Below are positions 17,709 through 38,785 of a stretch of 45,295 nt of DNA, piece by piece. The notes below the pieces were generated by a model, which saw only the letters and a list, made by a program, of their open reading frames with translations, was not told the DNA's origin and ran no database searches. Where the stretch lies: NCBI GenBank assembly GCA_024762835.1, contig JANTGP010000005.1, forward strand, positions 1 to 45,295, written 5' to 3'. This DNA is from Bacteroidota bacterium. GTDB taxonomy: Bacteria; Bacteroidota; Bacteroidia; Bacteroidales; M50B96. Position numbers and translations under genes: made by a program. The first letter of the stretch is position 1; each line of letters starts with the position of its first letter.

Positions 17709-19277
17709 ATGGATAGAAAAGTTGATTTCTTAGTAATTGGATCCGGCATTGCAGGTTTAAGTTTTGCACTTAAAGTAGCAGAACACGGCAGCGTTTGTAT
17801 TATTAGTAAAACAAGCCTTGATGAAACAAATACCCGCTATGCTCAAGGAGGAATAGCAGCCGTTACTTATTTGCCCGATTCATATAACAAACACATCAAC
17901 GATACGCTTATTGCAGGAGCAGGTTTATGCGACCGCAAAGTTGTGGAGATGGTGGTTAAAAAAGGACCTGAACAAATAAAAGAGCTTATAAAATGGGGTA
18001 CTTCTTTTGATAAAAAACCAAACGGCGATTACGATTTGGCAAAAGAAGGAGGACATTCCGAACAACGTATCTTACATCATAAAGACAATACCGGTTTTGA
18101 AATTCAGCGTGCCCTTACAAAAAAAATTATTAGTCATAAAAATATTATTACCCTCGAAAAACATTTTGCAATCGACCTGATTACTCAACATCATTTAGGT
18201 GAAGAGATGAACAGACACAAGGGAGGAATCGAATGCTACGGGGTATACTCTCTTAACCTAAAAACCAATGCAATAGATACTATTCTTGCAAAAAACACTT
18301 TTGTAGCTACAGGAGGAGCAGGAAATATTTATCAAACAACTACCAATCCGCCAATTGCTACCGGCGATGGTATTGCAATGGTTTACAGAGCCAAAGGAGT
18401 AGTAGAGAATATGGAATTTGTTCAATTTCATCCGACAGCCTTATATAATCCGGGCGAAAGACCATCTTTTTTAATAACTGAAGCCTTACGTGGTTTCGGT
18501 GCAATTCTTCGTACAGTCAAAGGGAAAGAGTTCATGCATAAGTACGATAAACGTGGGTCTTTGGCTCCCAGGGATATTGTTGCCAGGGCAATCGACCAGG
18601 AAATGAAACTATCAGGTAGCGATTTTGTTTATCTTGATGCACGCAGCTTAGATGAAAAAGATGTTGAAACCCATTTCCCTAATATTAAAGAGAAATGCCT
18701 AAGTCTTGGTATTGATATTAGTGCAGACTTAATTCCTGTTGTGCCGGCTGCTCATTATTTTTGTGGTGGAATAAAGGTTGATCTCACGGGACACAGCTCA
18801 ATTAAATATTTATATGCTGCCGGCGAATGCTCATGTACAGGGCTTCATGGTGCAAACAGATTGGCAAGTAATTCATTAGTTGAAGCATTGGTTTATGCAA
18901 ACGAAGCAGCTAAAGCTTCAATTAAAAATATTTCTGAAATCAAAGAATTTATAGATATTCCACAATGGAATTTTGAGGGTACGTCTCACCCCGAAGAAAT
19001 GGTTCTCATAACACAAAATATCAAAGAGCTACAACAAATCATGAGTAATTATGTTGGTATAGTACGGTCTAATCTCAGATTAAAAAGAGCTCTTGACAGA
19101 TTAGAGATTATTTATAACGAAACAGAAGAGCTTTATAAGAAATCTACTGTTTCGCAAAAAATATGTGAATTAAGAAATGCAATTAACGTAGCATATCTTG
19201 TAATAAAGATGGCTGCAAGAAGAAAAGAAAGTAAAGGATTACATTATACGATTGATTATCCCGAAAAGCTTTCTTAG
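17709..19277 (+). CDS. nadB: L-aspartate oxidase
   Basis: NadB oxidises L-aspartate to iminoaspartate, the first step of de novo NAD synthesis. The ATG at 17709 gives 522 residues beginning MDRKVDFLVIGSGIAGLSFA, the FAD-binding dinucleotide motif. Further family segments are NTRYAQGGIAAV, EGGHSEQRILHHKDNTG, the active-site region FVQFHPTALYNPGERPSFLI, LRGFGAIL, PRDIVARAID and the C-terminal GLHGANRLASNSLVEALVYA. The length is normal. nadA/nadC are not adjacent. The C10 protease gene begins only 13 bases after the stop, an unusual neighbour. Confidence 0.96.
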   Translation: MDRKVDFLVIGSGIAGLSFALKVAEHGSVCIISKTSLDETNTRYAQGGIAAVTYLPDSYNKHINDTLIAGAGLCDRKVVEMVVKKGPEQIKELIKWGTSFDKKPNGDYDLAKEGGHSEQRILHHKDNTGFEIQRALTKKIISHKNIITLEKHFAIDLITQHHLGEEMNRHKGGIECYGVYSLNLKTNAIDTILAKNTFVATGGAGNIYQTTTNPPIATGDGIAMVYRAKGVVENMEFVQFHPTALYNPGERPSFLITEALRGFGAILRTVKGKEFMHKYDKRGSLAPRDIVARAIDQEMKLSGSDFVYLDARSLDEKDVETHFPNIKEKCLSLGIDISADLIPVVPAAHYFCGGIKVDLTGHSSIKYLYAAGECSCTGLHGANRLASNSLVEALVYANEAAKASIKNISEIKEFIDIPQWNFEGTSHPEEMVLITQNIKELQQIMSNYVGIVRSNLRLKRALDRLEIIYNETEELYKKSTVSQKICELRNAINVAYLVIKMAARRKESKGLHYTIDYPEKLS

Positions 19278-19290
19278 TATATTCGAAAAT

Positions 19291-21390
19291 ATGAAAAACA
19301 AATACTTTAAAATCACAAGCTTATTATTAGGTTTTATCATAATAGCTAATTTTACTTTTGCCAAAAAAGTTACAATTAAGAAAGCAAGTCTGGTTGCCAA
19401 GAATTTTTATTACCAAAAATCCGGAGTATCAGTAAAAACATCTTACAATAAATTAAGCATCAATCTCTCGTATGTTGGTACTGATATGCTTGACACCACT
19501 TATTATGTGTTTTCGGATAATGTAAATAAAGGCTTTATAATTGTTTCTGCAGATGATAAGGTAAAACCTGTTCTTGCTTATTCTAATGAAGAAACATTTA
19601 ACAAAAACGATATTCCACCATCATGTAAATATTTTATCGATGGTTTTAGCGAACAAATTGCTTATGCTAAAAGAATAAACTACAGAGCAACAGAAGAAAC
19701 AAATAAGGATTGGGTTAAATATTCAGCCAATAACTTTAAAGATATAAGTGCAACAGAAGTACCAACAGCACCTCTCTTATTGACAAATTGGAATCAGGGC
19801 TTTCCTTATAACGAGTCTTGTCCGGTTGATAATGCCGGTCCGGGAGGTCACGCACTTGTTGGATGCGTAGCAATATCCATGAGCCAGATAATGAAATACT
19901 ATAATTATCCGGAACAAGGCTCCGGCTTTCATTCATATGGCTCGTCGGGATACGGAACACAATCGGCTAATTTTGGCAATACTCATTACGAATTCTCAAA
20001 TATGCCTTTTGTTGCTACAGAAAGCAATTCTGATTTATCAATGTTCTTATATCACTGCGGAGTAGGTGCCGAGATGCATTATGGAGTGGAAGGTTCAGGT
20101 GCATCAACAAATACAGCTCTGCACGCAATGCAAAATTACTTTAACTTTTCGTCAAATTGGGATTTTGACCTGCGTAGCTGGCACTCTGATTCTCAATGGC
20201 TGAATATTATAAAAAACGAAGTCGACCATTTGCGTCCAATGATTTATGTTGGCTATGACGGTCAGTCGGGTCATGCATGGAATTGTGACGGATACCAAAA
20301 TGATTTGGTTCATATGAACTGGGGCTGGGGAGGTTCGGCAAACGGTTATTTTAATGTAAGCAATTTATTAGCCGGAGGTTATAACTTTAGCTCAGGGCAA
20401 AAACTAGCTTATCATTTATATCCGGGTGGCAACTATCCATCGTATTGCAATTCTGTTAGTGACATTTATGGTGTTGAAGGTAATTTTAATGATGGAAGCG
20501 GACCTGAGAATTATCAAGATAACAGCAACTGCTTTTGGACAATATTGCCGGAATGCGGACAAAATATATATTTGTCTTTTGATTATTTTGATGTAAAATC
20601 CGGAGACACTTTAATAATATATGACGGAACAACTTTAAGCGACCCCATTCTGGCTAAGCTGTCAAACGAAATGGAATTACCCGCAGATTTATTTAGTGAT
20701 AAGGGTGGTGTATTATTAAACTTTGTAACAAACAGCTCAGAAACAGGTGGTGGATGGACAATAAGTTATTCGGTTGATTTTTGTAAAGGAGAAAAATATT
20801 TAACAGAGCCTAACGGTACTCTTACAGACGGTAGCGGTAACTGCGACTATAAAGATGCAAGCCTTTGCAGGTGGACTATTAACCCTGCCGGAGCTCTTTC
20901 AATTAGTTTGGACTTTTCTGAATTTGATCTATCACCCGGGATTGATAATGTGAAGATTTATAAAGATGAAATAAGTTCTGATAATTTGGTCGAGAAATTT
21001 AATTTCTTAAACCCGCCACAGCCTCTGACAATTAACTCTGACAAGGTGGTTGTTTATTTCTTTTCCGATTCTGAAAACCATTCTGGAGGCTGGTCTTTGG
21101 TTTACAGCTCATATCTTGACCCAAACGAAATTAACAATATCAAATCAATAGACAATATTAACTTATGGCCAAATCCGGCAAAAAACACCCTATATGTTTC
21201 TTTTGACTCAGACTTTAATAAACCTACTAAAGTTATTTTAATTAACACTTTAGGCGAAGTTGTTTACAATAATATTGTAGAAGATAATAATAAAATGCAA
21301 ATCGATATTAAATCTTTCCCGCAAGGAATTTACTTTGTTAAATTAACTTCAGGAAATAGTTTAATATCAAAAATGTTTGTAAAAAGATAA
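19291..21390 (+). CDS. Secreted C10-family (streptopain-like) cysteine protease with two CUB domains and T9SS sorting domain
   Basis: The product is 699 residues from the ATG at 19291; an upstream ATG at 19252 lies inside nadB and would disrupt the signal peptide. Parts in order: signal peptide (1-24), Spi/C10 propeptide (about 28-130, FIIVSADDKVKPVLAYS), catalytic domain with GHALVGCVAISMSQIMKYY (Cys192), GQSGHAWNCDGY (His328) and NWGWGGSANGYF, two CUB-like beta domains (about 386-500 and 502-612, each with paired cysteines and GGGWTISYS or GGWSLVYS), and a type A T9SS C-terminal domain (LWPNPAKNTLYV... to ...KMFVKR). It should be exported through the outer membrane by T9SS and activated by removal of the propeptide. 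All catalytic residues are present. It likely cleaves extracellular proteins; the CUB domains may direct it. Confidence 0.93.
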   Translation: MKNKYFKITSLLLGFIIIANFTFAKKVTIKKASLVAKNFYYQKSGVSVKTSYNKLSINLSYVGTDMLDTTYYVFSDNVNKGFIIVSADDKVKPVLAYSNEETFNKNDIPPSCKYFIDGFSEQIAYAKRINYRATEETNKDWVKYSANNFKDISATEVPTAPLLLTNWNQGFPYNESCPVDNAGPGGHALVGCVAISMSQIMKYYNYPEQGSGFHSYGSSGYGTQSANFGNTHYEFSNMPFVATESNSDLSMFLYHCGVGAEMHYGVEGSGASTNTALHAMQNYFNFSSNWDFDLRSWHSDSQWLNIIKNEVDHLRPMIYVGYDGQSGHAWNCDGYQNDLVHMNWGWGGSANGYFNVSNLLAGGYNFSSGQKLAYHLYPGGNYPSYCNSVSDIYGVEGNFNDGSGPENYQDNSNCFWTILPECGQNIYLSFDYFDVKSGDTLIIYDGTTLSDPILAKLSNEMELPADLFSDKGGVLLNFVTNSSETGGGWTISYSVDFCKGEKYLTEPNGTLTDGSGNCDYKDASLCRWTINPAGALSISLDFSEFDLSPGIDNVKIYKDEISSDNLVEKFNFLNPPQPLTINSDKVVVYFFSDSENHSGGWSLVYSSYLDPNEINNIKSIDNINLWPNPAKNTLYVSFDSDFNKPTKVILINTLGEVVYNNIVEDNNKMQIDIKSFPQGIYFVKLTSGNSLISKMFVKR

Positions 21391-21519: not shown

Positions 21520-23604
21520 TTATTGAATCACTATCTTCTTTAATATGACATTGTTGTCAATAAATACCCTTGCATAATAAACACCTGGTGCATATTTACT
21601 AAAAGAAAACTCCTGATTGATTGAGTTTTGGTCTTCAAATAACAGTCTTCCGGTTGCATCAGATAATTCAATCTTATATGGTTCTTCAATAGGCATACTG
21701 AAACTTAAAGTAAAGTTACCTTTATTGGGATTTGGGAAAATTGTAATTTCAATATTATCATTTGTCAATAAACTAATATCACCGGCAAAACTAAGTTTAT
21801 CTTTACTGAACTTGTTATCACCCTCAATCCAGTTGTCAATATTAAAAGAACTCTCTATTCCATCATGCCAGAGTACAAAATCTAAAATATCGTTATAATC
21901 TGCACCATCTTTAGTGTCTGTTGTTTCGTCATTCCCAAACACAGGAATTACCATAACATCGTCATTATAAACTGTACTCCCAACAAGCATGTTATCAGCA
22001 TAAACAGCAACTTCATCACCTTTTTCTATTACATTATTCCAAGCTTCTACCGGAATAATTATAGTATGATTATTGCCCGTATTTATATGTTGAACAAAAT
22101 GCTTAGGAACTAATAATTCTTCGTTGTAAGGAACAGCTTTAGAACCACCCGGAATAGAATCAGGATAGTAAAGAATTACGTTATTTCCGGCTAATATCTT
22201 TATTTTGTAGCCATCACCCGGATACATATCCTGGATGGTATTTATTGGTGGCCCGGATGGAGGATTTGGAATATAAACATTTCCATTCTTATCTTTCACA
22301 ATTTCAATTGCAGTATCAATACTTGCAAGCATTGTTTCAATTGGATAAACATCACGGTGGAGGTAACCAAAAATATTCCATCCTTCGTTTAGTTCAATTC
22401 CTGCATCAGGATCGACTTTAACTCCATTTACATATAAAACGAAACTACTTTTTAATCCGCCCGAATTGTTCATCTTAAGCTCATACCCCTCACCTATTTC
22501 CAATGAGCCAATAAGGTTTAAATCCCATGGTGGATAATACAATAAGCCCATTTCATTTTTCATGATGATAATATCTTGTTGCAAATCAAAGAATACGATT
22601 TCAACATCCGGCTCAAAAGGATTAATAAAAGTTGAAATAATGCTCCATCCGGAGGCCAGATTAAGCTCTTGGTCAGAATATCCATGAATTGATTGTATAC
22701 CGCTTATTCCATTTGTTTCGTATGATCCCTCATTAGGAAATAAGATTGTATTATATACCACATCGGCTTCTAAAAGCTCTTGTCTTGAGGCATCCCACAT
22801 TTTCCAAATAAAGTTTTCGCCATTATTAAAACCGTCTATCTCCGGTGTTGTTGGGTCATTACCAAAAGCAGAAACTACAGTTGTTGCACCAGTCCATATT
22901 ATATAACCGCCATTTTTTAAAGTTCCTAGCGAGTCATAAAAAACACCAATATAGTCTCCTTGTTCAATTGGCTCTCCATTAACTAAAACATCAGCAGAGT
23001 CGGGAATAAATATGGTATGGTTCTCGTTTGTAATAATAAATTCCCAATTAGGCCCCGGACCAAACCAGTTATAATTTGAAGTTGCAGTACATCCATTTGC
23101 ATCAGTAACTGTAACCGAATAAGTATCGGCCGTAGTAACAGAAATTGATTGAGCGGTTTCTCCATTCGACCATAAATAAGTATATGGCAATACACCTCCA
23201 CCGGCTATTGCTTTAAGCGAATCAAAAGCCTGTTGAATAATTACAGTATTTAATGGTATAGGACCACTTATTGTTATATCAGCTGTTGCCGTTTGCAGTA
23301 AAGCGTCAGTAACAGTAACGGAATAGTTCCCCTGACCTAAACCGGAAAGTTCCTGAGATGTTGCACCATTACTCCATTCAAATGAATATGGTGATAAACC
23401 TCCAACAACATCAATAATTACCTCTGCATCCGATGATTGAGAACAGCTCAAGGGATAACCGTTATAATCAGACAAAATAAATATTTCTACTGAAGTGATT
23501 GGATCTGAACTTGCCTTTTTTAAACCTGAATTGTTAGCTAATACACTTATATATAAAACACTAAGCAATATACTAAATGTTGTTTTGATTGATAAATTTT
23601 TCAT
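21520..23604 (-). CDS. T9SS-exported SprB-repeat protein
   Basis: This 694-residue exported protein has a signal peptide (about 1-24), then two SprB-type repeats (about 43-175) with the pattern GGLSPYSFEWSNGATSQEL...GNYSVTVTDA. A long middle region of two similar beta-domain pairs follows (NHTIFIPDSADVLVNGEPI and, later, NNHTIIIPVEAW, each followed by FGNDxTTxxxDGxN), with LASGWSIISTFINP and LNEGWNIFGYLHRD segments between. It ends in a type A T9SS sorting domain (ITIFPNPNKGNFTLSFS... to ...ILKKIVIQ). It is probably a surface or secreted adhesin-like protein. The repeated SDYNGYPLSC segment resembles the repeats of the large adhesin at 42399-45295. Convergent with the protease gene. Confidence 0.88.
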   Translation of the reverse strand: MKNLSIKTTFSILLSVLYISVLANNSGLKKASSDPITSVEIFILSDYNGYPLSCSQSSDAEVIIDVVGGLSPYSFEWSNGATSQELSGLGQGNYSVTVTDALLQTATADITISGPIPLNTVIIQQAFDSLKAIAGGGVLPYTYLWSNGETAQSISVTTADTYSVTVTDANGCTATSNYNWFGPGPNWEFIITNENHTIFIPDSADVLVNGEPIEQGDYIGVFYDSLGTLKNGGYIIWTGATTVVSAFGNDPTTPEIDGFNNGENFIWKMWDASRQELLEADVVYNTILFPNEGSYETNGISGIQSIHGYSDQELNLASGWSIISTFINPFEPDVEIVFFDLQQDIIIMKNEMGLLYYPPWDLNLIGSLEIGEGYELKMNNSGGLKSSFVLYVNGVKVDPDAGIELNEGWNIFGYLHRDVYPIETMLASIDTAIEIVKDKNGNVYIPNPPSGPPINTIQDMYPGDGYKIKILAGNNVILYYPDSIPGGSKAVPYNEELLVPKHFVQHINTGNNHTIIIPVEAWNNVIEKGDEVAVYADNMLVGSTVYNDDVMVIPVFGNDETTDTKDGADYNDILDFVLWHDGIESSFNIDNWIEGDNKFSKDKLSFAGDISLLTNDNIEITIFPNPNKGNFTLSFSMPIEEPYKIELSDATGRLLFEDQNSINQEFSFSKYAPGVYYARVFIDNNVILKKIVIQ

Positions 23605-24110: not shown

Positions 24111-24722
24111 ATGCTTAATATAATTTTTACTGATAAAAAGATTATTGAAGACATCCGCTCTGACAACGTCAAGCAAAGAGATAATGCATTAAAATATCTT
24201 TACGAAAGACATTATCAAATGGCCTTAAACATTGTCAGGCGAAAAGGAGGAACAGAATATGAAGCAGAGGATGTATATCAGGAGTCAATTATTGCGTTGT
24301 ACGAAGCTATTAGAGGAAATAAGTTTAGGGGCGAATCAAAGATTAGCACATGGCTTCACTCAACCATATTTAATCAATGGTCGCTTGCTACACGAAAAAG
24401 TAAAAAACAAAAGACAAATAATATAGAAGATTACTCAAAAGAAATTAGTACAGAGGATGATTCTTACAAGCATGATGAGACAGAATTGTTAAAGGTAATA
24501 TGGGAAATATTAGAAAATATTGGAACAACATGTAAACAAGTATTACTTGATTATTATTACCATAAAATGACAATGAAAGATATAAAAGAGAAGATGGGTT
24601 TTAAAAACGAACAGGTTGCAAAAAATAAAAAGTATAGATGTAAAGAGAAATTTGATACTTATATAAAAGGAAAAAAAGGTTTACAACAATATTTAAATAA
24701 GTTGTATTATGATAGATATTAG
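24111..24722 (+). CDS. ECF-type RNA polymerase sigma factor
   Basis: The 203-residue product has sigma region 2 (about 35-100: EAEDVYQESIIALYEAIRG, then FRGESKISTWLHSTIFNQW) and a region 4 helix-turn-helix (about 140-180: LLDYYYHKMTMKDIKEKMGF, NEQVAKNKKYRCKEKF). There is no region 1 or 3, so it is an ECF-like group IV factor, of the variety in which region 4 resembles the CHAT/TPR-associated Bacteroidetes factors. It overlaps the next gene by 14 bases, as expected for a sigma/anti-sigma pair made together. Confidence 0.9.
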   Translation: MLNIIFTDKKIIEDIRSDNVKQRDNALKYLYERHYQMALNIVRRKGGTEYEAEDVYQESIIALYEAIRGNKFRGESKISTWLHSTIFNQWSLATRKSKKQKTNNIEDYSKEISTEDDSYKHDETELLKVIWEILENIGTTCKQVLLDYYYHKMTMKDIKEKMGFKNEQVAKNKKYRCKEKFDTYIKGKKGLQQYLNKLYYDRY

Positions 24723-25506
24723 AAATACAGATAACATAGAGGCCTACATAGATAATAATTTAGAAGGCAAAGAACTGGAAGAATTTGAAATGCTTTTGGA
24801 ACAAGATGAAGAATTTGCAGAAATTGTTTCAAATATAAAAGCAGGCATTGTGGCTATTGAGGTAATTGGCCATAACGAAATGAAAAAGAAAATAAAAAAA
24901 ATACATCGCAATATGAAGCAACGGAATAATACTAAGATTCCATATTTGTTAAAGATTGCTGCTATTTTTGTTGGAATTGCTTCTATTGCCATTTTATCAT
25001 GGTACTCTTTTTCGGCAAAACATAATTACAATAATTTATTTGCCGATAATTTTGAACCTTATACAAATCTACTTACAATTAAAGGTGAAACTCAGGCTTA
25101 TAACGAACAATCATTAATTAATAATGCAATGTATCAATACGATTTACATGATTATACAAAAGCTAATGAATCATTTAAAAAACTTTTAACATACAAAAAG
25201 GATAATGACACAGTATTATTTTATTATGGTATAAGTAAGTTGGGAGCCGGAGAAGTTGACGATGCAATTGTATTATTAAACAGGTTACTTGAAAAAGAAA
25301 ATAGCTTGTTTTCAAGATTCGGTCATGTAAAATGGTATTTAGCCCTGGCATATTTAAATGATGCCGGCGAACTTCAAAAAGCAGGAAAACCGGAAAAAGA
25401 AATCAACGAAAAATTATCAAAAAGCAAAAAACTACTTAAAGAAATTGTTGCAGATAATGATGATTTTGCAGATGATGCTCGCAAAATATTAAAGAAATTA
25501 AATTAA
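24709..25506 (+). CDS. Membrane protein with anti-sigma-like N-terminus and TPR-like C-terminus
   Basis: The product has 265 residues. Residues 1-75 are acidic then basic (YIDNNLEGKELEEFEMLL, KKKIKKIHRNMKQRNN) and look like the cytoplasmic sigma-binding segment of Bacteroidetes anti-sigma proteins, without a zinc-binding motif. One membrane helix (about 79-100) follows. The C-terminal half (about 125-262) is helical with at least two TPR-like repeats (YDLHDYTKANESFKKLL, LLFYYGISKLGAGEVDDAI). By the positive-inside rule the TPR part is periplasmic. The 14-base overlap with the sigma gene supports a sigma/anti-sigma pair. Its TPR part could bind or be cleaved by the convergent CHAT protein; that is a hypothesis. 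Confidence 0.72.
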   Translation: MIDIRNTDNIEAYIDNNLEGKELEEFEMLLEQDEEFAEIVSNIKAGIVAIEVIGHNEMKKKIKKIHRNMKQRNNTKIPYLLKIAAIFVGIASIAILSWYSFSAKHNYNNLFADNFEPYTNLLTIKGETQAYNEQSLINNAMYQYDLHDYTKANESFKKLLTYKKDNDTVLFYYGISKLGAGEVDDAIVLLNRLLEKENSLFSRFGHVKWYLALAYLNDAGELQKAGKPEKEINEKLSKSKKLLKEIVADNDDFADDARKILKKLN

Positions 25507-25507
25507 T

Positions 25508-28500
25508 CTACGATTTTTTTATCTTAATACGCCAAACAAAAAATACAATAAGAATTACGAAAGCTCCAATCCACCAATAATCCGGATTATCTTTTTCGTC
25601 AGCGTTTAAAGCATCTGTATTTCCTATATTAACAAATCCAGCCCAAAAATATGGGTTAGCTTTTAAATTATCTGCCTGTTCAAGGTAGTCAAGTTTTGCC
25701 TTTTGTAATGCAATATTTTTGGGAAAACCGTCTTTCAAATATTTATAAAACTTTTCAACTATCATTACAGATGTTCCGTCAGGGACACACCAAAGAGTCA
25801 TTACAATACTAGGGACACCGGCATAAAGAAAGCCTCGTGCAAGACTAATTATCCCTTCGCCTTTTTCAAGTTTCCCACATCCTGTATTACATGCACTTAA
25901 CACGGCAAGGTCGGCGTTAAGTCGCATGTTAAATAGCTCGTAAGTATAGAGATCTCCATCTTGCAGGCTATCATCATTTCGATAAAACAATAAACGCGAA
26001 TTCATAGGGTCCTCATCGTCAATAATACCATGAGTTGCGATATGAAGAATCTTATAATCTGATGCGAAATGTTTAAAATTTGCTTCTGTAGCAACACTGT
26101 CTAGATATTTCTCTCCCTTAAATATCTTATTAATACTATTAACTTCCAGTTTAGAACCTATTAAATCAACAAATTCCTCGCCTCTTTCTGTAAGAAATGC
26201 CGGCAAATAATCATTCATATTAAACGAGGGAGCAATAGCAAGCAACTCTTTATCCGGCTTTCTCTCGTGCTTTTTATACGAATTAAAAAGTAAAGTTGCC
26301 GAGTAGGCATAAGATACAGCGTGCTCTTTTATCAGATAAGGAGAGTCTTTATAGTAAGTTTTATCGGGGTTTATCTTATGTGTCAGTAAAGTTTCAAAAG
26401 GTATATATCCTAATAGTCCATCAGGGATAATAATGAGGTTCTTAGCTTTTATATGCTCCCTGATATTACTGAGAACTTTATTGTAAACCACATATGAGCT
26501 TTCGGAGAATTTTCTAAATATCTCAGGTGATTGGTACATTTCGGATTGAAAATGTTGAATATTCAATATCGATTCAAAAAAACTGCTGTCAATTCCTTCT
26601 TGCGTGAAAAAGACAGAATCTCTTAATATTACAAACTGATACAGCCTGTTATCAACTATATTATATTCAATTAAAGCATCACTTTTACTTAAATGATTTT
26701 GTACTGATTTAATGTCTAAAATACTATTATCGTATTTCAATTGATAATACTTTGGATAATTCTCGTCAAGATATTTTTTAAGTTTTTCCAATTGCTGAAA
26801 TTTCTTGTCAAAAAGTTCTTCTTTTAAAGCGGTTACTATTGAATCATTTGGTATTGAATCTGCCTCTTCTATACTTAGCTGTTTCTCCAAATCAAATATA
26901 TCGGCTTTTAGTACCTTTTCCACCAACAACATCGAATCAGGAATATTTGAATATAGCTTAGCTTCATTTTCGCGAATTAACTCGTACAAATAAGCCGCTT
27001 TACTCATTTCAGTAACTTTATATGCCCTTTCAATATATTTATAGTCATTACTAATCTTATATAATTTGTAGGCTATTGAAACAGCTTTTTCGTAACTCTC
27101 ACTTTCATCATTACTTAATTTCAACTTATCTTGTGAGTAATAACTCAAATGCATGCGGTCAATCAGTCTAACTGCTAAACAATAATTATCAAGACTTGCA
27201 TTCAAAGTCTTTAGATTCTCTTGGGATATTAGCCAAAGCCGGTAAAAAACTTGTGCTTTATTTTTAATTGCTTTCAATAATTCCTTCTCTAAAGGCAACT
27301 TGGTATAATCCGGTACAATAAAAACATCTTCTTCGTCAAAATTATGAATGAGACTTGTCATTGCTTTTTGAAAATATTCTAATGCTCTTTTATAATCTGA
27401 CTCCTCAAAATAAATCATCCCAAGATTATTATAGTTACTTGCAATACCTTGAGGAATATTCAGCTCTTTGTTAATCTTTATTGCTTTTTCATGACAAATA
27501 ATTGCTTTTTTAATATTTGCTGTTCTGGTATAAAGCAAACCTTGATTATTCCAATTAACAGCCTCAGCCTTCTTTTGTCCTGCATCAAGAAAGATTTTAT
27601 TTGCCTGTTTTAATGTTTTTTCAGCTTTCTTAAATAAACCGGTTTCTCTATATAAATCGCCAAGATTATCAAGGCACTTTGCATAACTAATATGATTGTT
27701 TGATTTTTGAAAAATATCAGCAGCTATTTTAAATTTTTCTATGGCTTTGTTGTAATTATTATATTCCTTTTCAATCCATGCTATATTATTGTAATCGGTT
27801 GCAACTTGTTCGGGTACATTTCTTTGCAAATCAATTTCAAGTGCACGATTAAAATACTCCAGTGCTTTGTCGTATTGTCCAAGTTTTAAAAAGCTATTAC
27901 CTATGTTGCTTAGGTATATGGGTATATCCCTGTTTTTTTTCTGTAATAAATCAATATTAATAGCCTGTTCGATGTAATCAATTGATTCTTTGTATTGTCC
28001 TATTGCCTGATATAAAGCACCCAAATTATTAAGGTTAGTAACCAAACCGCCAAGATTATTAGATTTCTTATTAATTATTAATGCTTGACGGAAATAATAT
28101 ATGGTTTTATCGTATTTACCCAGAAAATAATATGCACTCGCAAGGTCATTGTAAATTGAAGCAAGATTCTCATACTCATCGATATCTAATGTATTAATTA
28201 TTGATAAGCTCTTTTCTAATATATTTACCGATTCGCTAAACTTATTCTTGTATAAGTAAATGCTACCCTGTAGCTTAAAAATATCGGCTAACAAAAACTT
28301 ATTTTCCGAACACTTATCTTTGTTAAGCTGCTTTGCACTATTAAGTAATTTCTGCGATTCATTATAATTTGACTTAGACAGTTCAATTTCCGATTTTTTT
28401 AAAAGTACTGATACTTGTGCTTCCCAATTTTTACTGTTTTTAAATTCTTGTTCGGCTTTTAGATAGTAGCTCAGTGCATCGTCAATATTGCCTTTTTTAT

Positions 28501-28624
28501 AAAACTCTTCGGCTTTTTTAAAGTTATCATTATCAATAGTCCACCTGTTATTTGCAATACATATATTTAATAAAACAGAAATTATAATTAAGGTAGTAAA
28601 AGCTTTTTTAAAAAAATATTTCAT
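25508..28624 (-). CDS. Exported, membrane-anchored TPR-CHAT protease-like protein
   Basis: This 1038-residue protein has an N-terminal signal sequence (about 8-26), roughly ten tetratricopeptide repeats (about 30-430, e.g. NNLGALYQAIGQYKESIDYI), a helical linker (about 440-680) and a C-terminal CHAT domain (about 720-1000). The caspase-like dyad is visible: His865 in ILHIATHGIIDDEDP and Cys912 in LAVLSACNTGCG, followed by GEGIISLARGFLYAGVPS. A final membrane helix (about 1012-1031) and a basic tail (RIKIKKS) anchor it, so TPR and CHAT parts should face the periplasm. An AGGAG ribosome-binding-like sequence precedes the ATG. Its stop is one base from that of the anti-sigma-like gene (convergent). 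CHAT proteins are Cys proteases of the separase/caspase clan; the substrate is unknown. Confidence 0.88.
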   Translation of the reverse strand: MKYFFKKAFTTLIIISVLLNICIANNRWTIDNDNFKKAEEFYKKGNIDDALSYYLKAEQEFKNSKNWEAQVSVLLKKSEIELSKSNYNESQKLLNSAKQLNKDKCSENKFLLADIFKLQGSIYLYKNKFSESVNILEKSLSIINTLDIDEYENLASIYNDLASAYYFLGKYDKTIYYFRQALIINKKSNNLGGLVTNLNNLGALYQAIGQYKESIDYIEQAINIDLLQKKNRDIPIYLSNIGNSFLKLGQYDKALEYFNRALEIDLQRNVPEQVATDYNNIAWIEKEYNNYNKAIEKFKIAADIFQKSNNHISYAKCLDNLGDLYRETGLFKKAEKTLKQANKIFLDAGQKKAEAVNWNNQGLLYTRTANIKKAIICHEKAIKINKELNIPQGIASNYNNLGMIYFEESDYKRALEYFQKAMTSLIHNFDEEDVFIVPDYTKLPLEKELLKAIKNKAQVFYRLWLISQENLKTLNASLDNYCLAVRLIDRMHLSYYSQDKLKLSNDESESYEKAVSIAYKLYKISNDYKYIERAYKVTEMSKAAYLYELIRENEAKLYSNIPDSMLLVEKVLKADIFDLEKQLSIEEADSIPNDSIVTALKEELFDKKFQQLEKLKKYLDENYPKYYQLKYDNSILDIKSVQNHLSKSDALIEYNIVDNRLYQFVILRDSVFFTQEGIDSSFFESILNIQHFQSEMYQSPEIFRKFSESSYVVYNKVLSNIREHIKAKNLIIIPDGLLGYIPFETLLTHKINPDKTYYKDSPYLIKEHAVSYAYSATLLFNSYKKHERKPDKELLAIAPSFNMNDYLPAFLTERGEEFVDLIGSKLEVNSINKIFKGEKYLDSVATEANFKHFASDYKILHIATHGIIDDEDPMNSRLLFYRNDDSLQDGDLYTYELFNMRLNADLAVLSACNTGCGKLEKGEGIISLARGFLYAGVPSIVMTLWCVPDGTSVMIVEKFYKYLKDGFPKNIALQKAKLDYLEQADNLKANPYFWAGFVNIGNTDALNADEKDNPDYWWIGAFVILIVFFVWRIKIKKS

Positions 28625-37272: not shown

Positions 37273-37839
37273 TTGGGGGAGTCTGAAATAATAAATAAAA
37301 TTTTATCAGGTAATAAATCTGCATTCGGTACGATTGTTAAGAAATATCAAGGCATGATTACAAACACTTGCTACGGTTTTCTAATGAATAATGAAGATGC
37401 CGAAGATGTTGCCCAAGAAACATTTATTGAAGCATACACATCAATTGGTAAGTTTAAACAAAACTCAAAACTATCAACATGGTTGTACAGAATAGCTGTA
37501 AATAAATCAATTGATTATCTCAGAAAAAAGAAGAGAATAAAAAGATTTGCTTTAACATCAAACATATTTTCAGAAGATATTGAAATAACTGATTATAACA
37601 CAAATAACCCACAAGAAGAAATAGAATCAAAAGAGCGACTTGCAATTTTAAATTTAGCACTAAACATGTTAAGTAAAAATCAAAATATAGCTTTTCGTCT
37701 AAGCAAATTTGAAAAACTTTCGGGTAAAGAAATCTCTGAAATAATGAATCTAAGCTTATCATCTGTAGAATCATTAATTCATAGAGCTAAGAATAATTTA
37801 AGAAAAATATTATTTAAGTATTATAATGACAAAATTTAA
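37273..37839 (+). CDS. ECF-family sigma factor with TTG start
   Basis: The 188-residue product has region 2 (AFGTIVKKYQGMITNTCYGF, EDAEDVAQETFIEAYTSIGKF, STWLYRIAVNKSIDYLRKKKR, about 15-90) and region 4 (about 125-180: AFRLSKFEKLSGKEISEIM, SLSSVESLIHRAKNNL). The only start that keeps the conserved N-terminus is a TTG at 37273; a stop lies five codons before it, and the next Met would remove region 2. A weak start may limit the protein's amount. It heads a cluster with a small membrane protein and two Spy-like proteins. Confidence 0.9.
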   Translation: MGESEIINKILSGNKSAFGTIVKKYQGMITNTCYGFLMNNEDAEDVAQETFIEAYTSIGKFKQNSKLSTWLYRIAVNKSIDYLRKKKRIKRFALTSNIFSEDIEITDYNTNNPQEEIESKERLAILNLALNMLSKNQNIAFRLSKFEKLSGKEISEIMNLSLSSVESLIHRAKNNLRKILFKYYNDKI

Positions 37840-37893: not shown

Positions 37894-38253
37894 ATGAAAA
37901 AAAATAAGATAATTGAAGAAATAGATAAAACACTTGATAGTGTCAGCTCTTTTGAGAGATACGAAGGAAATCCATTCCTATTTACCCGTATTGAAGCAAA
38001 AATAAATAATATGAAAGAAGGCTCTGTTAATTATAACCATGCAAGAAAGTATTTACTTCGCGTGCAACCAATAATACTGCTTTTAATTCTATCATTGAAT
38101 ATTTGGACAGCTACAACATTTTTTTTCGACAAGTCTAATTCATCTTCTGAAAGAGATTATGAATTAAACAATATTATTGATGAGTATTCTCTTACAACAA
38201 GCAATTATGTTATTTCGGCTTTTGATGAACAAAAAACAAACAATTATGAATAA
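37894..38253 (+). CDS. Small single-helix membrane protein, candidate anti-sigma factor
   Basis: This 119-residue protein has a charged N-terminal part (1-52, with SFERYEGNPFLFTRIEAKIN), one membrane helix (about 55-78) and a short acidic periplasmic tail. Its N-terminal pattern is like that of short membrane proteins coded after ECF sigma factors in Bacteroidetes. No zinc motif is seen. It overlaps the following Spy-like gene by 8 bases. Anti-sigma function is inferred from position and topology. Confidence 0.6.
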   Translation: MKKNKIIEEIDKTLDSVSSFERYEGNPFLFTRIEAKINNMKEGSVNYNHARKYLLRVQPIILLLILSLNIWTATTFFFDKSNSSSERDYELNNIIDEYSLTTSNYVISAFDEQKTNNYE

Positions 38254-38785
38254 AAACACTTTATACTGGATAATTGCTTTACTGGTATTGTTAAATATCT
38301 TCACGATGTTTATGTTATGGCAAGACCATTGGGATAGAAAGGCTGATTTTCATAATCAAAGACTCGGAATGTTCCATCAGGCAGGCGATAATAAACCGGA
38401 ATTTATTCAACGAGAATTAGATTTAAGTAAAGAACAAACAACAAGATTCAGAAGATACAAGAAAGAACATCTAAAAAGAGTAAATCAGATTTCTGAAAAA
38501 ATACATAAAACTAAAACACTTTTATTGGATGAAACTTTTTCAAATAATCCGGATAGCCTAAAGATTGATAGTTTAATAACTAAAATTGGTAATCTTCAGA
38601 AAAGACTTGAAGAATCAAACATTACTCAGATAAATAAAATGAAGGAAATATGCAATCCAGGGCAATTGAAAAAGCTTAAAATTTTATTTAATGAAGTAAT
38701 GCTAAAAGCAGAACCAAATGGAAGGAAACGTCCGGTTCATAATAAACAGGGAATGCATAAATCAAAAATAAAAAGTATAAAATAA
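38246..38785 (+). CDS. Membrane-anchored Spy/CpxP-like periplasmic protein
   Basis: From the ATG at 38246 the product is 179 residues; an ATG at 38177 lies inside the upstream gene and would put a poor sequence before the membrane helix. The helix at about 6-24 is uncleaved-signal-like, followed by a highly charged helical periplasmic domain with the Spy/CnrX/ZraP layout: RELDLSKEQTTRFRRYKKEH, then a long second helix (LITKIGNLQKRLEESNITQI) and CNPGQLKKLKILFNEV. The LTxxQ-type motif appears as LSKEQ and PGQLKKL. Such proteins sense envelope stress or metals and act on an ECF sigma/anti-sigma pair. Confidence 0.78.
   Translation: MNKNTLYWIIALLVLLNIFTMFMLWQDHWDRKADFHNQRLGMFHQAGDNKPEFIQRELDLSKEQTTRFRRYKKEHLKRVNQISEKIHKTKTLLLDETFSNNPDSLKIDSLITKIGNLQKRLEESNITQINKMKEICNPGQLKKLKILFNEVMLKAEPNGRKRPVHNKQGMHKSKIKSIK

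Follow-up and report, generated by a model that had tools for sequence, protein, structure and literature searches.

Genes and domains of the locus

The window analyzed here, a stretch of 45,295 nucleotides from a member of the Bacteroidota (contig JANTGP010000005.1), contains a forward-strand gene (24111-24722) whose 203-residue product matches both Sigma70_r2 (41.8 bits; cut-off 24) and TIGR02937 (78.9 bits; NCBIfam cut-off 42.9), with a match to region 4 that falls under its cut-off (E 0.012). Judged from its sequence, the protein qualifies as an ECF sigma factor: a short member of the sigma-70 family that comprises only regions 2 and 4. TPR columns from a fusion protein had entered our own sigma HMM, so sigma calls throughout use ORF position, length and Pfam; Pfam Sigma70_r2 was found in 15 of the 25 sigma proteins checked.

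Overlapping this gene by 14 bases is a second forward-strand gene (24709-25506), which encodes a 265-residue, anti-sigma-like TPR protein with a single transmembrane (TM) helix, as indicated by its ORF, Pfam, hydropathy and a family alignment. Members of this family, referred to here as the small protein, have in common a motif in the N-terminal part, a single TM helix, a linker and a TPR domain. In the window protein, hydropathy locates a hydrophobic segment at residue 80, corresponding to a helix at about residues 80-98 (24946-25002, forward strand), and the TPR domain occupies about residues 136-250 (25114-25458, forward strand; Pfam TPR and family alignment). The score of TPR_19 (28.3 bits; cut-off 25) bears out the TPR-like C-terminus proposed in an earlier note on this DNA.

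The N-terminal part of the small protein (residues 1-75; 24709-24933, forward strand) carries the family motif and resembles anti-sigma domains. Among 23 family members, 10 match the NCBIfam model NF052375 ("anti-sigma factor"; best 5.9e-8), all under its curated cut-off, and 6 match the anti-sigma model NF047528, again all under cut-off; the window protein itself matched neither in the NCBIfam search. The anti-sigma-like character that the earlier note had ascribed to residues 1-75 is thus upheld by relatives, below threshold, and not by the window protein. One family member (L069) displays an H-x3-C-x2-C pattern (HIENCELC), which is the layout of zinc-type anti-sigma factors, and Pfam zf-HC2 was not called for this protein. 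As in the class I anti-sigma layout, the gene adjoins a sigma gene, its product has a single TM helix, and a natural fusion is known: an in-frame union of an ECF sigma factor and a TPR anti-sigma-like protein, 448 residues long (L070:3146-4492). The structure model of this fusion is too poor (pLDDT 70, pTM 0.35, with a bad sigma part) for any claim on the sigma-anti-sigma interface; the small protein is presumed to bind the sigma factor.

Convergent with the small-protein gene, and separated from it by a single base between the stops (25507), is a reverse-strand gene (25508-28624) for a TPR-CHAT protein of 1038 residues, predicted from its ORF, Pfam and hydropathy to be an exported, membrane-anchored protease. 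From the N-terminus, its reverse-strand features are a signal peptide (about residues 1-24; 28553-28624; hydropathy and sequence), a TPR array (about residues 40-425; 27350-28507; Pfam), the CHAT domain (residues 714-1002; 25619-26485), assigned by fold and by PF12770 (199.3 bits; cut-off 24) alongside many TPRs, and a C-terminal membrane anchor (about residues 1017-1035; 25520-25576; hydropathy) followed by a basic tail. Residue read-out and alignment identify the catalytic His865 (26030-26032) within ATHGI and Cys912 (25889-25891) within SACNT. The gene overlap, the one-base convergence, the intact dyad, and the signal peptide and anchor (hydrophobic segments at residues 5 and 1017) had all been read correctly in the earlier note.

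An AlphaFold2 model of the window CHAT protein is confident (pLDDT 87.8, pTM 0.86). In a Foldseek search, its best matches are the TPR-CHAT chains of Craspase (E 2.3e-17 to 8d9f), and separases, eukaryotic enzymes whose substrate is cohesin, appear from E 2.4e-10. With its profile match, its His-Cys dyad and a modeled fold like those of separase and Csx29, the protein is predicted to be a CHAT peptidase. An alignment used only for PDB searches and identities (A7) contains one erroneous row (L241:1-1).

Several other genes in the window are worth recording. Adjoining the three genes are SprB-repeat genes with matches to T9SS sorting domains (21520-23604). A second small-protein homologue in the same genome likewise adjoins a long SprB-repeat protein with a T9SS sorting domain (L195:1-2421), and these adjoining genes are possible targets of the sigma factors. 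A further gene (19252-21390) encodes a streptopain-like Peptidase_C10 with an Inhibitor_I69 propeptide, CUB domains and a T9SS tail. Elsewhere, a second ECF sigma gene (37273-37839) is followed by a gene for a single-TM protein of the Metal_resist family (38177-38785), possibly a separate sigma/regulator pair.

Conservation of the gene trio in the Bacteroidota

Small-protein homologues and CHAT domains were mapped separately, first in 60 relatives and later across 296 genomes of Bacteroidota, with 80 bits or more taken as a strong small-protein match. In the 296 genomes, a CHAT gene resides within 10 kb of 52 of the 70 strong homologues; by chance, given the CHAT counts and the sizes of the genomes, 0.86 would do so. 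Random adjacency is thereby ruled out, which settles the neighborhood check suggested in the earlier note. The 52 linked pairs are divergent (24), on the same strand (15) or convergent (13), so the link is kept even though gene order is not. The sigma gene, on the other hand, lies directly upstream of the small-protein gene on the same strand in all 61 complete trios, with a gap of less than 30 bases in 56 of them and an overlap in 27. Evolutionary distances among the three proteins are also matched (Mantel r of 0.72 for small protein and CHAT, 0.69 for sigma and CHAT, and 0.76 for sigma and small protein; maximum of 5000 permutations, 0.15-0.18), in part reflecting shared species history. A single-protein search returned 14 loci from named Bacteroidales, Lentimicrobiaceae and Bacteroidetes, 10 of which have a CHAT near the small-protein gene.

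The remaining 18 strong homologues lack a CHAT gene within 10 kb, 6 of them in genomes for which none is listed at all. In the closest relative (G002), which belongs to the same family as the window genome, orthologues of the sigma/small pair (53-57% identical to those of the window; L061) and of the CHAT protein (52%; L062) are on different contigs. In its own genome (90% complete), no CHAT match besides the window CHAT was found.

The His/Cys dyad is intact in all 82 CHAT proteins that have aligned residues there, of which 48 are linked and 34 unlinked. A C-terminal TM helix is more frequent in linked CHATs (38 of 49) than in unlinked ones (7 of 30; Fisher 4.5e-6). Together with the export signal, this helix locates linked CHATs on the side of the membrane where the small protein has its linker and TPR domain.

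A reading of the trio as a defense system was rejected: the sigma factor and small protein have no PADLOC match, and the hits of the CHAT protein are confined to a TPR model and another, weak model. On viral contigs, no relative was found. Individual loci show further variety. In one, the CHAT gene appears as two convergent ORFs (a C-terminal part of 250 residues and one of 855 residues; L233:7580-10896), perhaps through an inversion or an assembly fault. In another, a Peptidase_C14 (caspase) gene (L080:7943-8836) is directly upstream of the sigma factor, small protein and a 1362-residue CHAT, all on one strand, bringing two clan CD proteases together. Peptidase_M28 genes reside beside the sigma/small genes at two distant (f80) loci (L214:7584-9296 and L226:6681-8345), both of which also have a CHAT.

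A candidate cleavage site and its covariation with the protease

The linker between the TM helix and the TPR domain of the small protein is variable overall. Among 63 linkers from proteins less than 50% identical, Arg-[Ser/Gly] occurs in 46 (mean 13.8 and maximum 22 in 500 shuffles), and Arg/Lys-[Ser/Gly] occurs in 50 (shuffle mean 23.4, maximum 33). The window linker has Lys125-Gly126 (25081-25086, forward strand), about 27 residues past the TM helix and predicted to be periplasmic. The conservation of this basic-[Ser/Gly] motif, its position and the covariation described below make it a candidate cleavage site. A minority of linkers carry Met-[Gly/Ser/Asp] at the equivalent place. Homologues from CHAT-less genera mostly have, by eye, neither the basic nor the Met motif at this position, and a loose automatic motif test gives a modest difference (23 of 26 linked versus 5 of 11 CHAT-less; p 0.011).

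Met-class linkers were assigned by eye before the CHAT sequences were viewed, and the CHAT columns were then ranked. Residue 827 ranks first and separates the linker classes completely: it is Glu in 48 of 48 CHATs paired with Arg/Lys linkers and in none of the 17 paired with Met linkers, in which it is Ala, Leu, Ser, Val or Thr. In the window, this residue is Glu827 (26144-26146, reverse strand). Asp949 (25778-25780, reverse strand) is found in 48 of 48 partners of Arg/Lys linkers versus 9 of 17 partners of Met linkers, and unlinked CHATs have Glu827 in 35 of 35 cases. A second set comprises 20 further loci of another family. Here, 15 loci have Arg-type linkers and 17 CHATs, all with Glu827 and Asp949; one locus (L317) has a Leu-type linker and a CHAT with Phe827; and 4 loci have no CHAT in range. 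Two genomes (G351 and G395) contain one module of each class, and in both genomes the linkers are correctly matched to residue 827.

In the AlphaFold2 model, Glu827 is on alpha1, the helix that comes after strand one of the catalytic half. In other clan CD proteases, residues of alpha1 read a P1 Arg (Asp365 in MALT1, Asp163 in RgpB), whereas in MARTX-CPD, a protease that cleaves after Leu, this helix has Ala47 (PMC4357240); separases also retain an acidic residue at alpha1 (PMC4626109). Glu827 is therefore presumed, from the model and the linker covariation, to be the S1 residue that reads P1. From the alignment columns, Asp949 is probably the counterpart of separase Asp2151, which is replaced by Lys670 in Csx29 (PMC9729208).

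A single origin of the Met class is not rejected by an AU test (p 0.66), and independent origins are unsupported by it; thus, the covariation may go back to a single change that has since been retained. The Met class takes in f68 loci and also loci from other families. Met-class modules, several f68 loci among them, often have a Peptidase_S8 (subtilase) gene between the small-protein gene and the CHAT gene (L292-L301 and L229; for example, L292:2598-4178 and L301:2362-3864), recalling the context of the ECF54 group. At such loci, the linker could be cut by the subtilase.

Proposed mechanism and alternatives

A class I anti-sigma factor is encoded nearby for only 6% of Bacteroidetes ECF sigma factors (PMC7406223). 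The module described here would supply a means of control for one group that recurs, and for it a single cut site and a single specificity residue can be predicted. The small protein would be a membrane anti-sigma factor that keeps the ECF sigma factor bound through its cytoplasmic N-terminus and, in the periplasm, has the TPR domain at the end of a short linker. The TPR-CHAT protein would be a cysteine protease like separase and Csx29, exported and anchored in the inner membrane so as to face the periplasm. When either TPR part, or both, senses a cue from the envelope, the CHAT protease may become active and would cut the linker after its basic residue (Lys125 in the window), so that the TPR domain is removed. 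Release of the sigma factor would follow through a site-2 protease and proteases of the cytoplasm, by analogy with the pathway of RseA and DegS, the latter a PDZ serine protease; the genome of the window encodes a Peptidase_M50 site-2 protease. The earlier note had already suspected a proteolysis-controlled sigma module, and the linkage, the matched distances, the intact dyad and the covariation of linker and S1 residue are consistent with that reading at the sequence level. The arrangement recurs across the Bacteroidota: a caspase-like CHAT protease, positioned on the periplasmic side of the inner membrane, probably cleaves the membrane protein by which a sigma factor is restrained. With moderate confidence, we take the trio to be a real module for proteolysis-controlled ECF signaling, in which the CHAT protein cuts the anti-sigma linker after a basic residue.

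The gene order is loose, and in the window the CHAT gene comes after hemN, which is transcribed in the same direction, so that the two may be co-expressed. These features, the 18 homologues without a nearby CHAT and the occurrence of some anti-sigma homologues in genomes with no listed CHAT would suit a CHAT protein that is an effector in the regulon of the sigma factor, or a co-inherited stress protease acting on other envelope proteins, with the anti-sigma protein controlled by another protease. Such an arrangement is unlikely, because an unrelated effector would have no need for a linker class that covaries with the presumed S1 residue, and linked CHATs are preferentially anchored. The TPR domains in both partners could instead build a sensing complex that frees the sigma factor by conformational change without proteolysis, and the presence of an anti-sigma factor and a CHAT domain in the single chain of DdvA is compatible with this idea. 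The invariably intact dyad argues against it, as does the covariation of linker motif and Glu827, which cutting explains and docking alone does not, and we consider it quite improbable.

A more local alternative applies to the Met-class loci, where the interposed Peptidase_S8 genes and the unrejected single origin of the CHATs would fit a subtilase that cuts the linker in place of CHAT, leaving the correlation of residue 827 with the linker as only a clade marker. Yet this residue is the single best separating column and is on the very helix that sets P1 specificity (PMC4357240), and loci of other families are also in the Met class; this explanation, too, has little probability. Cleavage of the linker by the CHAT protease is the reading that we prefer.

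Comparison with known systems

In the open-access literature searched, no description of the sigma/small/CHAT trio was found. Its parts have analogs in several known systems. In the sigma-E pathway, the single-TM anti-sigma factor RseA is cut by DegS in the periplasm near the membrane and then by the site-2 protease RseP (PMC8103513), whereas the window has a caspase-like CHAT protease and a periplasmic TPR domain. Separase (peptidase family C50), a fold match to the window CHAT, uses an acidic residue after LWxV and another near alpha1 for P1 Arg (PMC9729208, PMC4626109). The ECF54 group has a gene context with CHAT and subtilase proteins, and proteolytic control has been proposed for it; some Met-class loci share this context with subtilases, but ECF54 is described as lacking an anti-sigma factor, unlike the trio (PMC8999054). 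DdvA is a transmembrane anti-sigma factor tied to a CHAT domain with aligned conserved His and Cys (PDB 8rot, 8rw5). It is one chain of 991 residues, whereas the anti-sigma-TPR and TPR-CHAT proteins of the window are encoded by separate genes, and no true fusion of the two was found among the ORFs examined. By analogy, DdvA is a fused counterpart that lends independent support to the link between anti-sigma factor and CHAT.

The closest parallel is Craspase of type III-E CRISPR, in which the TPR-CHAT protease Csx29 likewise cuts Csx30, an inhibitor of the ECF-like CASP-sigma (PMC10028731, PMC9729208). In line with the earlier note, no CRISPR array was found in the window, there being no direct repeats of at least 20 bases within 200 bases, and the window sigma factor scores only 25.7 bits against the III-E sigma model NF041236 (cut-off 100). 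In contrast to Craspase, the protease and inhibitor of the window are membrane-bound or periplasmic, and the inhibitor is a TM-TPR protein. Csx29 resembles the Met class, since the separase Asp for P1 Arg is absent (K670) and it cuts near Leu407 or Met427, whereas the window site is of the Arg/Lys type. The chances seem about even that the phylum as a whole possesses periplasmic, anchored, caspase-like CHAT site-1 proteases, each cutting its own TPR anti-sigma protein at a P1 residue, Arg/Lys or Met, that has co-evolved. These would make up a separate branch of regulated proteolysis and an envelope counterpart of the Csx29/Csx30/sigma switch. If so, the CRISPR-linked Csx29 switch would stand among many CHAT-sigma systems that operate without CRISPR.
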